NCBI RefSeq assembly: GCF_041320275.1
Contig: NZ_CP162023.1
Span: forward strand, 62,001 to 126,000
Direction of reading: 5' to 3'
Length of the DNA: 64,000 bases
Origin: Mumia sp. Pv4-285
GTDB taxonomy: Bacteria > Actinomycetota > Actinomycetes > Propionibacteriales > Nocardioidaceae
Position numbers and translations under genes: made by a program. The first letter of the stretch is position 1, and every line of letters begins with the position of its first letter. A model generated the notes under the pieces. That model saw only the letters and a program-made list of their open reading frames with translations, had not been told where the DNA came from and did not search any database. Positions 30,155-32,478 of this stretch are shown here, piece by piece.

Positions 30155-31015
30155 ATGGGCAAGAAGTCGCGTCGTCGCGTCAAGCCGGCGAAGGTCGAGC
30201 GGGTGCCGTTCCGCGCGCGCACGTTCGAGGGGCTGCCCGGTGAGTGCGACTGGGTGGCCATGCGCGAGTTCGTGCCGTCGGCCACGGCGGTCGTCACGCT
30301 CCGACCGGAGATCGCGGTGGACGCCACCGTCCGGGTCTGCACCCTTCTGCCGGCGGCAGCGCCCGGACTCGTCCGTCCCGACGGAGAGCTCTGGGTCGGC
30401 CTCCAGGTGACCCACAACTTCGGTGACGTGAGCCGTGACATCGCTGCAGCGATCGAGCAGGGTCTCGGACTCGAGCCGGGCTCCGAGATCGTCGCCACCG
30501 ACCCTGGCGTCGGTCCACGCCTGCAGGAGATCGTCGACCCCGCGTCGGAGTTCGCCGTCGATGTCCAGGAGGGCTTCGACTTCTGGACCGCCGGCGTGGA
30601 CGACCCGACCGGTGACATCGCTGCCGGCATGGAGCAGGCCAACCAGCTGGCGACTCCGACGGCGCGCCTCGAGGAGGTCGACGCCGCCTACTGGACCCAG
30701 CTCGGCGAGCGCCAGTTCCTGCGCTGGGTGATGCCCCACGACGAGGAGACGCTGCTCAGCGCGCTCGCCCGGCTCCACGTCGCCGGTGACGACCGCCTGG
30801 GCGACGACGTACGCCTCATCGGCTCGTTCCGCGCGCACGGTCTCCTCGTCCCGGTGTGGGAGATGGAGAAGCCCACCGAGGCCGCTGAGCTCGAAGGACC
30901 GGTGGCGGCGTTCCAGTCACGCCTGAACGACGCGCTAGCGGATTCGACGCCGTTGACGACCGAGCAGCGGGGCGCCAGGAACGGTCTCGCGAACCGTCAG
31001 ATCACCGTCCGCTGA
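30155..31015 (+). CDS. DUF5926-family protein
   Basis: A 286-residue conserved actinobacterial cytosolic protein. It starts with a basic segment (GKKSRRRVKPAKVERVPF) and has no membrane segment. I recognise the family by FEGLPGECDWVAMREFVPSATA and WVMPHDEETLLSALARLH; its function is unknown. The start follows CAGGAGAA. It may be cotranscribed with the PYGQ-tail protein. A hairpin at 31104-31149 lies downstream. Confidence 0.8.
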   Translation: MGKKSRRRVKPAKVERVPFRARTFEGLPGECDWVAMREFVPSATAVVTLRPEIAVDATVRVCTLLPAAAPGLVRPDGELWVGLQVTHNFGDVSRDIAAAIEQGLGLEPGSEIVATDPGVGPRLQEIVDPASEFAVDVQEGFDFWTAGVDDPTGDIAAGMEQANQLATPTARLEEVDAAYWTQLGERQFLRWVMPHDEETLLSALARLHVAGDDRLGDDVRLIGSFRAHGLLVPVWEMEKPTEAAELEGPVAAFQSRLNDALADSTPLTTEQRGARNGLANRQITVR

Positions 31016-31067
31016 GGGCCTCGGCCGGTCTTCGTACGGCGCGTGAGCCAGGTCACAAAATGCCCTC

Positions 31068-31096
31068 TTGAACGCCTGTACAGGATGCCTTAGAGT
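31068..31096 (+). promoter_or_regulatory. Promoter upstream of a hairpin
   Basis: TTGAAC (31068-31073) and TAGAGT (31091-31096) are 17 bp apart, a near-consensus housekeeping promoter. Its predicted start, near 31103, coincides with the first base of the 46-nt hairpin below. Confidence 0.55.
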
Positions 31097-31103
31097 TCAC
31101 GTC

Positions 31104-31149
31104 AGACCCCGGTCGTTGCTGTATCCCCCGTCAGCAGCGGTCGGGGTCT
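31104..31149 (+). terminator. Long hairpin at the predicted transcript start
   Basis: AGACCCC...GGGGTCT and an inner GTTGCTG/CAGCAGC stem give about 15 base pairs, followed by TT. It could terminate the DUF5926 transcript. Because a good promoter ends just before it, it could instead be a structured 5' end, or a small RNA. Confidence 0.55.
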
Positions 31150-31204
31150 TCCCATTCCCCCGCGCGCGTTCCGCTGGTGCCGTCGTGCTAGCGTCTGCGA
31201 CGTG
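31150..31204 (+). promoter_or_regulatory. Promoter of the DAHP synthase leader
   Basis: TAGCGT at 31189-31194 is a typical actinobacterial -10, with no clear -35. Transcription would begin at or just before the leader-peptide start (GTG 31202 or ATG 31205), giving a leaderless leader peptide. Nothing else is seen in this stretch. Confidence 0.45.
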
Positions 31205-31261
31205 ATGAGCGGACGATTTTATGGGCGCGACGTGCTGGTGCAGCCAGCGGTCGGCGTCTGA
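31205..31261 (+). CDS. Leader peptide controlling DAHP synthase
   Basis: An 18-residue frame, MSGRFYGRDVLVQPAVGV, followed by TGA. Codons 5 and 6 are Phe (TTT, rare here) and Tyr (TAT, rare here), the end products of the pathway that the next gene opens. It is followed by alternative pairings (GTGCTGG 31232-31238 with CCAGCAC 31284-31290; GCTGG 31234-31238 with CCAGC 31244-31248; GTCGG with CCGAC) and then by a strong terminator. This is the layout of classical ribosome-mediated attenuation. Confidence 0.65.
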   Translation: MSGRFYGRDVLVQPAVGV

Positions 31262-31291
31262 CCTTTCCGACTCGCACAGCTAGCCAGCACA

Positions 31292-31318
31292 GGCACGGAC
31301 CACACGGTCCGTGCCTTT
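31292..31318 (+). terminator. Attenuator of the DAHP synthase gene
   Basis: GGCACGGACC and GGTCCGTGCC form a perfect 10-bp stem with an ACAC loop, followed by TTT. It lies 30 bp after the leader-peptide stop and 54 bp before the enzyme's start codon, so transcription must read through it to express the enzyme. Confidence 0.8.
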
Positions 31319-31371
31319 CGTCATTCGTGGCGGTGCCGGCTCGACATCGGCGCCGCCGAGAGGAAGCGCCG

Positions 31372-32478
31372 ATGTCATCGACAGCCCCGGTCCAGACCGG
31401 AACCACGACCCCGCCCCGTACGAGCGACCTGCGCGTGCAGTCGCTCGAACCGCTCGAGCCGCCGCGCGAGGTCGTCGCGGCTCGCCCGCTCAACGACGCG
31501 GCGGCCGATCTGGTGGCGGCCTCGCGGGATGCGGCTGCCGCGATCATGTCCGGCCGAGACGACCGGCTCCTCGTCGTGGTGGGGCCGTGCTCGATCCACG
31601 ACCCGAGCGCCGCGCTCGACTACGCCCACCGCCTCGCGCCGCTGCGGACCGCGTACGCCGACGACCTCGAGATCGTCATGCGCGTCTACTTCGAGAAGCC
31701 GCGGACGACGGTCGGGTGGAAGGGCCTCATCAACGATCCCGGCATGGACGAGTCGTACGACGTGCGGCGCGGGCTGCGCCTCGCCCGGTCGGTGCTGCTC
31801 GACGTGCTCGCGACCGGGTTGCCGGCGGGCACCGAGCTCCTCGAGCCCACGAGCCCGCAGTACCTCGCCGACGCGGTCTCGTGGGGGGCGATCGGTGCGC
31901 GTACGCCGGAGAGCCAGGTGCACCGGCAGATGGTGTCGGGGCTGTCGATGCCGGTGGGCTTCAAGAACGCCACCGACGGGTCGGTCCAGGCAGCCGTCGA
32001 CGGGTGCCGTGCGGCAGCCGCAGCGCAGACGTTCTTCGGGATCGACGGCGACGGGCGGGCGAGCGTCGTGTCGACCAGCGGCAACCCCGACTGCCACGTC
32101 ATCCTGCGGGGCGGCCACGACGGCCCCAACTACGGCGTGGCGTCGCGGCGCGCTGCGCTCGAGCTGCTCGAGCGGGCCGGCATGCCGCAGCGGCTCGTCG
32201 TCGACGCGAGCCACGGCAACTCGGGGAAGGACCACGTACGCCAGGCCGCGGTGGTGCGCGAGCTCGCGCACGACGTCGCGGCCGGTGACCGCGGGATCGC
32301 CGCGGTGATGCTGGAGAGCTTCCTGGTCCCCGGCAAGCAGGCGCCGGCGCCGGCCGGCCTCACGTACGGTCAGAGCGTCACCGACGCGTGCATCGGCTGG
32401 GACGTCACCGAAGGGCTGCTCGCCGAGCTCGCGTCGGCGTCGGCAGCGCGCCGGGTCGACCGGCAGAGCGGGGCCTAG
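31372..32478 (+). CDS. 3-deoxy-7-phosphoheptulonate (DAHP) synthase, class I
   Basis: A 368-residue cytosolic enzyme that joins phosphoenolpyruvate and erythrose-4-phosphate to start the shikimate pathway. Family blocks are VVGPCSIHDPSAALDYAHRL, MRVYFEKPRTTVGWKGLINDP, GARTPESQVHRQMVSGLSMPVGFKN and VDASHGNSGKDH. It matches the AroF/G/H type rather than the class II enzyme common in actinobacteria. GAGAGGA precedes ATG 31372. The leader with Phe-Tyr codons and its attenuator suggest control by charged tRNA-Phe or tRNA-Tyr, so this is probably the Phe- or Tyr-regulated isozyme. Confidence 0.93.
   Translation: MSSTAPVQTGTTTPPRTSDLRVQSLEPLEPPREVVAARPLNDAAADLVAASRDAAAAIMSGRDDRLLVVVGPCSIHDPSAALDYAHRLAPLRTAYADDLEIVMRVYFEKPRTTVGWKGLINDPGMDESYDVRRGLRLARSVLLDVLATGLPAGTELLEPTSPQYLADAVSWGAIGARTPESQVHRQMVSGLSMPVGFKNATDGSVQAAVDGCRAAAAAQTFFGIDGDGRASVVSTSGNPDCHVILRGGHDGPNYGVASRRAALELLERAGMPQRLVVDASHGNSGKDHVRQAAVVRELAHDVAAGDRGIAAVMLESFLVPGKQAPAPAGLTYGQSVTDACIGWDVTEGLLAELASASAARRVDRQSGA

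Follow-up and report, generated by a model that had tools for sequence, protein, structure and literature searches.

The closest described system is the AroR leader of Corynebacterium glutamicum, which was reportedly described as the attenuator of aroF by Neshat and co-workers in 2014. Leaderless leader peptides are known for C. glutamicum attenuators, that of AroR among them. AroR is an F-Y-F leader that precedes aroF and is reported to work by attenuation (PMC11802643, PMC4046766). According to the part of a review that deals with this operon, aroF transcription goes up when Phe is limiting and is unaffected by the supply of Tyr. Attenuation has also been suspected for aroF of E. coli and Shewanella (PMC8632094, PMC2659441). 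The available text of a survey of actinobacteria from 2005 records that operons for Phe or Tyr are not preceded by any conserved element (PMC1262725), and our literature search of open papers met no description of a wide actinobacterial distribution of aroF leaders.

We analyzed a window of 64,000 nucleotides from Mumia sp. Pv4-285 (all coordinates are on its forward, +, strand), for which an initial annotation had proposed ribosome-mediated attenuation of DAHP synthase by Phe and Tyr supply. The comparisons described below suggest, with a probability of about 0.85, that the aroF leader is an AroR-type ribosome-mediated transcription attenuator. Its kind is already known from AroR of C. glutamicum, and the window leader adds a further member; the main interest is in the inverted use of the control codons and in the output step.

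A conserved leader upstream of aroF

The aroF gene (31372-32478) encodes a class I DAHP synthase of 368 amino acids (PF00793, 282 bits; TIGR00034 aroFGH, 475 bits at a cut-off of 173) and has the Shine-Dalgarno sequence GAGAGGAAG at 31358-31366. A class II DAHP synthase was found in all six congeneric genomes, with an aromatic leader upstream in none of them, which argues that aroF is the regulated second isoenzyme. Upstream of one class II gene (L181), TACGCT stands 6 nt before a GTG, which gives this gene a leaderless look; no aromatic leader was seen there. Outside the genus, aroF was found in none of the 31 other members of the family, and the wider survey adds one genome of a different genus (G353).

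The 18-codon frame with adjacent TTT and TAT codons described in the initial annotation is present, running from ATG at 31205 to the TGA stop at 31259-31261, but its start probably lies one codon earlier, at GTG 31202. The resulting ORF (31202-31261) encodes (V)MSGRFYGRDVLVQPAVGV, with the control codons TTT TAT (one Phe and one Tyr; no Trp is present) at 31217-31222. A -10-like hexamer, TAGCGT, preceded by TG-C, is located at 31189-31194 and predicts a transcription start at or beside the leader start codon. The distance from the end of TANNNT to this codon is exactly 7 nt in all five congeners with aroF, in which the hexamer reads TAGCGT, TACTGT, TACTCT or TAGCCT. Because the codon 7 nt past the -10 hexamer is always GTG or ATG in the congeners (the second codon being ATG after GTG and TTG after ATG), GTG 31202, giving 19 codons, is a likelier start than ATG 31205. 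Among 90 actinobacterial leaders the spacing was 7 nt in 72, 6 nt in 13 and 8 nt in 5, a statistic that is inflated since leader picking preferred starts with a -10 hexamer; of the control ATG/GTG codons, 15 of 2883 had a comparable -10 spacing. The leader ORF has no evident Shine-Dalgarno sequence. With a -10 hexamer that ends 7 nt upstream of the start codon, the leader transcript is probably leaderless, as has been described for leader peptides of Streptomyces lividans (PMC8079986).

Six genomes of the genus were compared, five of which carry aroF, and the leader is present at all five loci. Leader frame, TTT TAT codons, pairing segments and hairpin are all kept in these five, and no locus was found that retained the hairpin and had lost the frame. 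The comparison of orthologous upstream regions that had been proposed as a check thus speaks for the leader, as F-Y codons and hairpin are conserved in the genus and the majority of the class I aroF genes inspected in actinobacteria have an aromatic leader before them. Among the congeners, 6 of 150 third positions differ in the leader versus 915 of 2980 (0.31) at identical residues of aroF; with synonymous third positions nearly frozen, the leader RNA itself appears to be constrained. When the own genome was searched for the leader core with up to three mismatches allowed, a single place matched, and no further copy was found. No Rfam 15 family reached its gathering score over the leader in the window and in the loci of 20 relatives, the best score being 25.9 bits to Bcj14 (gathering 59).

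Further upstream, at 31099-31153, a conserved hairpin with a C-rich loop, TATCCCCCGTC, was observed. Its match to the mycobacterial F6 small RNA (RF01791) is weak (20 bits with a gathering score of 46, E 0.18). The loop pattern was found in 21 of 39 relatives with up to three mismatches, including the congener without aroF, compared to 3 of 39 for the reversed-pattern control. This element is probably an independent F6-like small RNA.

Distribution of aromatic leaders and inverted use of control codons

A class survey of 394 genomes gave 80 matches, of which 78 were taken as true aroF and two (G414, G152) were dropped as too weak for aroF. Also dropped were L021 and L022, which are two pieces of one genome, and L027, the upstream region of which is masked. 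L079, L080, L100 and L114 were struck by hand as false leaders; L079 and L080 resemble the tails of upstream genes. An aromatic leader with a -10 hexamer at 5-8 nt was present at 52 of the 78 class-survey aroF loci. The other 26 loci comprise 23 in family f20 as well as L096 and L097, all of which have no leader, and the masked L027. At the f20 loci (e.g., L044, L045, L048), aroF lies behind a frame ending in ...EFWEEDLPGLK or similar. Judged from these sequences, f20 may represent a group from which the attenuator was lost or in which it never existed.

In the nearest relatives, each of the 20 aroF loci that are intact has an aromatic leader. One was also found at 21 of 30 named actinobacterial loci (the named locus L120 has no leader on one reading and lay outside the second leader scan) and at 22 of 23 further loci of the family of Mycobacterium, taken as one per genus except for three from g161. 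Leaders of individual genera include VKRSYWRFFEWPALVPGDSADR (Kribbella), VNIGVRAYWRFIVAPGGASDAASG (Mycobacterium), MTNRWYAYFSLALEGPASN (Arthrobacter) and MQRYFWFTKPAPGGHGGVNPR (Amycolatopsis). Two small-genome relatives in the family of Mycobacterium carry the F-Y-F leaders MRMWRFYFSKAPEAETS and MRNWRFYFEWGSGR, each with a complement after the stop codon and a hairpin; as F-Y-F is the motif reported for AroR, these leaders are likely to be its close kin. Among other loci, rich aromatic leaders precede aroF in 25 of 51 (two of which were too short), mostly in Proteobacteria, with MSAKFYFYFFWHLKPLADREG of Burkholderia as an example. At the non-actinobacterial loci L122, L129, L134, L140, L155 and others, from Xanthomonas, Caballeronia, Bradyrhizobium and relatives, the class I DAHP synthase gene was also seen to follow a leader ORF very rich in aromatic residues. 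The lone attenuator of C. glutamicum thereby becomes a trait that is spread over much of the phylum, and the natural leader variants could sense Phe and Tyr only, or Tyr, Trp and Phe jointly.

TTT and TAT had been noted to be rare in this genome, and indeed the five neighbouring genes contain 49 TTC and 24 TAC codons and neither TTT (0) nor TAT (0). Codons were counted on 81 distinct actinobacterial leader sequences, since L104 and L113 apparently come from the same genomes as L072 and L081. In these leaders TTT/TAT outnumber TTC/TAC by 179 to 18 (Phe: TTT 86, TTC 11; Tyr: TAT 93, TAC 7), versus 4 to 729 in the aroF bodies of complete loci (TTT 2, TTC 410, TAT 2, TAC 319). Fisher tests gave a p of about 1e-82 each for Phe and Tyr, although the leaders are related and the counts are therefore not independent. 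Other codons ending in C or T are mostly used in a genome-like manner in the same leaders (AAC 28/32, CAC 11/12, TGC 16/20, ATC 43/44), with Asp departing from this pattern (GAT 22, GAC 23). The inversion of control codons is thus specific to Phe and Tyr, Asp being the exception among the other C/T-ending codons. It is present in nearly all leader types; in YFWF-type leaders the middle Phe is usually TTC, and in one small type Tyr is encoded by TAC three times and by TAT once. The 22 leaders at the further loci of the family of Mycobacterium contain TTT 25, TAT 20, TTC 11 and TAC 3, and a weaker bias was found in 25 leaders from outside the survey, mostly of Proteobacteria (TTT 71, TTC 21, TAT 37, TAC 30).

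According to the portion of published reporter work available, NNC codons are decoded faster than NNU codons where a single tRNA serves both (PMC4046918), which makes slow control codons the natural reading of this inversion, and the TTT/TAT leaders look as if natural selection had favoured slow decoding in them. The isoacceptor charging by which the choice of control codons is explained in the accessible part of PMC1183508 would not account for the inversion of Phe and Tyr codons seen here. A narrow literature search met no published report of rare control codons for Phe and Tyr.

Long-range pairing and the hairpins before aroF

The pairing between GTGCTGG and CCAGCAC that had been proposed is present. 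Segment A (GTGCTGG, 31232-31238) is located in the leader tail, 12 nt past the first base of the Tyr codon, and is invariant in the congeners; segment C (CCAGCAC, 31284-31290) pairs with A and abuts hairpin D:E. A local alternative partner of A, CCAGC, is found at 31244-31258 together with GGTCGGCGTC, a near copy of the 3' arm of the proposed terminator; the hairpin of A with this local segment (A:B) has an energy of -7.5 kcal/mol. Of 1000 shuffles, 22 equalled the duplex that the leader tail forms with the segment after the stop codon. D:E (31291-31316), the proposed terminator, has 11 bp, a loop ACAC and an energy of -22.1 kcal/mol, and the energy of this region was equalled in 0 of 1000 shuffles. 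The whole 141-nt stretch, in which promoter DNA is included, folds with z = -5.6.

The initial annotation had described D:E as a 10-bp terminator hairpin plus TTT immediately upstream of the enzyme gene. Ten base pairs are indeed formed at 31292-31301/31306-31315, and 11 with the flanking A-T pair, but the hairpin ends 55 nt before the aroF ATG. The TTT is part of the tail TTTCGTC (31316-31322), its first T being the last base of the hairpin; this is a short T run and no U-tract, and a scan of 31000-31500 for standard terminators (at least 5 T in 8) found none. Across 72 segmented loci, the hairpin is followed by a T run and then CGTC or CGCC in 44, and the T run has a length of 2-4 in 67. At 31316-31325 and in relatives with many leader types, the short T run was seen to be followed by CGTCATT or CGCCATT. 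Another hairpin, GTGGCGGTGCCGGC.../...GGCGCCGCC (31327-31360), directly 5' of the Shine-Dalgarno sequence, is predicted in all five congeners and carries GTGCCGGC, in which 7 of 8 positions could pair with C.

Pairing tests were performed with 72 of the 90 loci, representing 11 leader types grouped by hand on peptide motif. The 18 leaders set aside consist of six that were mis-segmented (L011, L012, L013, L016, L043, L102), one with a shifted frame (L017) and 11 for which no separate terminator hairpin was found (L087-L091, L095, L107, L121, L123, L124, L145). Cognate A:C pairing was better than noncognate pairing in all 11 leader types, and the cognate mean was reached by 0 of 2000 permutations in each of five draws. 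The helix between leader tail and post-stop segment covaries across the 11 leader types. Pairing of C with a further segment, F, on the far side of the hairpin, gave a weak signal, as the cognate value was reached by 8, 51, 49, 66 and 11 of 2000 permutations in five draws. Pairing of F with the segment before the Shine-Dalgarno sequence (F:G) gave no clear signal (619, 159, 241, 128 and 210 of 2000 permutations), and sequestration by F:G was therefore rejected. Pairing of the leader tail with the 5' arm of the terminator (X:D) reaches -14.6 kcal/mol in this genus versus -10.2 kcal/mol for shuffled sequences and shows no signal in the permutation test across leader types; an antiterminator of the overlap type was therefore rejected, and X:D was retained as a genus-level hint. 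A:C abuts D:E in 63 of 72 loci and in none of the seven Kribbella-type loci. Compared to shuffled tails the excess is modest (54/64 versus 1172/1920), and since shuffled tails reach 61%, abutment was dropped as evidence.

When the window leader was folded with the nucleotides under a ribosome masked, A:C was formed with the ribosome stalled at the Phe or the Tyr codon and was lost with the ribosome at the stop codon. In this model the control codons are placed such that a stalled ribosome would alter long-range pairing, as a classical trp-type attenuator needs. For most of the other leader types, part of A would lie under a ribosome stalled at the last aromatic codon. Seven loci were folded in this way, and D:E had a probability of about 1 wherever the ribosome was placed (0.83 in one locus). 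As D:E forms in all simulated states, thermodynamics alone yields no switch. No antiterminator that shares a strand with the terminator stem was found at the window locus, where A:C ends at the point at which D:E begins and has no base in common with it. The sensing end of the system is thus well supported and the output end is not, as A:C and D:E are compatible secondary structures.

YFWF-type leaders (L087, L089, L090, L091, L121, L124, L145 and others) have no separate terminator hairpin. By eye, C pairs with the next segment in these loci, and that segment seemingly also pairs just before the Shine-Dalgarno sequence. Such an arrangement resembles a form of the switch that acts on translation.

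Proposed mechanism, alternatives and relation to known systems

In the proposed AroR-type attenuator, transcription would begin at the GTG/ATG or next to it, with ribosome loading on the leaderless 5' end. With ample charged Phe-tRNA, and possibly Tyr-tRNA, the ribosome would quickly reach the stop codon and cover A, and RNA polymerase would terminate at D:E. When charged tRNA is short, a stall at TTT or TAT would free A for pairing with C, and transcription would proceed into aroF. The U-ending control codons would be read more slowly and would hence make stalling easier. Attenuation by Phe and Tyr supply as claimed in the initial annotation is thus plausible in substance, given the conservation in the genus, the actinobacterial leaders and the analogy with C. 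glutamicum. The Tyr half finds no support in the available report on C. glutamicum, and is to be held cautiously since Tyr is reportedly ineffective there. As to the output, either A:C hinders the touching D:E by its position, or D:E is a pause site or partial terminator and the choice between A:C and C:F decides. Tentatively, at somewhat less than even odds, we picture an old attenuator that actinobacterial aroF genes have in common and that follows a design peculiar to it. Its leader would be leaderless, with Phe and Tyr control codons kept in the slowly read, U-ending form that is otherwise avoided by the host, though a single tRNA should serve both forms. Its stall helix would not contest individual bases with the terminator and would instead block it by position or compete with a second helix beyond.

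The most serious alternative retains a leader-controlled switch and moves its output downstream. The OFF state would be C:F (GCCAGCAC with GTGCCGGC), control would come into play past D:E, either at the ribosome binding site or through termination further on, and D:E would act as a pause site or partial terminator. A:C and C:F both use C and would exclude each other in textbook fashion, most permutations fall short of C:F, and the hairpin directly before the Shine-Dalgarno sequence is kept in the genus; in the YFWF-type leaders, which lack a separate D:E, C:F is by eye the sole evident hairpin soon past the leader. However, the support for C:F is weak and its segment is rich in G and C, no clear permutation signal was obtained for F paired with the segment before the Shine-Dalgarno sequence, and attenuator transcripts have been reported at aroF of C. 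glutamicum, which favours termination. We regard this arrangement as rather unlikely.

Two further explanations would do away with tRNA sensing. The near-invariance of the peptide beyond the FY residues within the genus would suit a leader that acts by nascent-chain arrest or as a trans-acting peptide; outside the genus, however, the peptide is conserved only at the aromatic residues and at those encoded by segment A, and the third positions are constrained too, as a function of the RNA would predict, which leaves this explanation very improbable. Less credible still is that the leader ORF arose by chance and that D:E merely serves as a constitutive terminator for transcripts from upstream, be it from the DUF5926 gene or from the F6-like RNA. 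Directly upstream there are indeed a gene and a hairpin like that of the F6 small RNA, and D:E is a strong hairpin with T residues after it, but the leader promoter and an ORF with frozen synonymous sites intervene, many other genera have aromatic leaders with the same spacing before aroF, and A:C covaries.

Among known systems, the classical trp and pheA attenuators resemble the proposed AroR-type attenuator at the window locus in having control codons in a leader peptide, alternative pairings over a long range and a hairpin before the gene. The window locus differs from them in that its supported stall-dependent helix has no base in common with the terminator stem, its leader has no evident Shine-Dalgarno sequence and a U-tract is absent. 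The ilvBNC attenuator of C. glutamicum likewise combines an actinobacterial leader peptide with a terminator hairpin, but its antiterminator and terminator hairpins, as described in the available text (PMC11857589), overlap, whereas the supported helix and the hairpin of the window do not. The LEU element before leuA is also an actinobacterial leader ORF with conserved RNA pairing; in the part of the source that describes it, a leucine run pairs with the Shine-Dalgarno sequence at the base of a pseudoknot (PMC1262725), whereas the window leader has no Leu run. The uORFC-13-1 motif of Acholeplasma similarly places a Phe-containing upstream ORF and a terminator before aroF, but belongs to a different phylum and, in the text available, has its own ribosome binding site, unlike the window leader (PMC8632094). 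AroR itself has an F-Y-F motif and C. glutamicum reportedly responds to Phe only, whereas the window leader has a single Phe, a single Tyr and no Trp; as far as the partial accounts of AroR extend, both loci place a leader with Phe and Tyr before a class I aroF and have the class II enzyme elsewhere in the genome.
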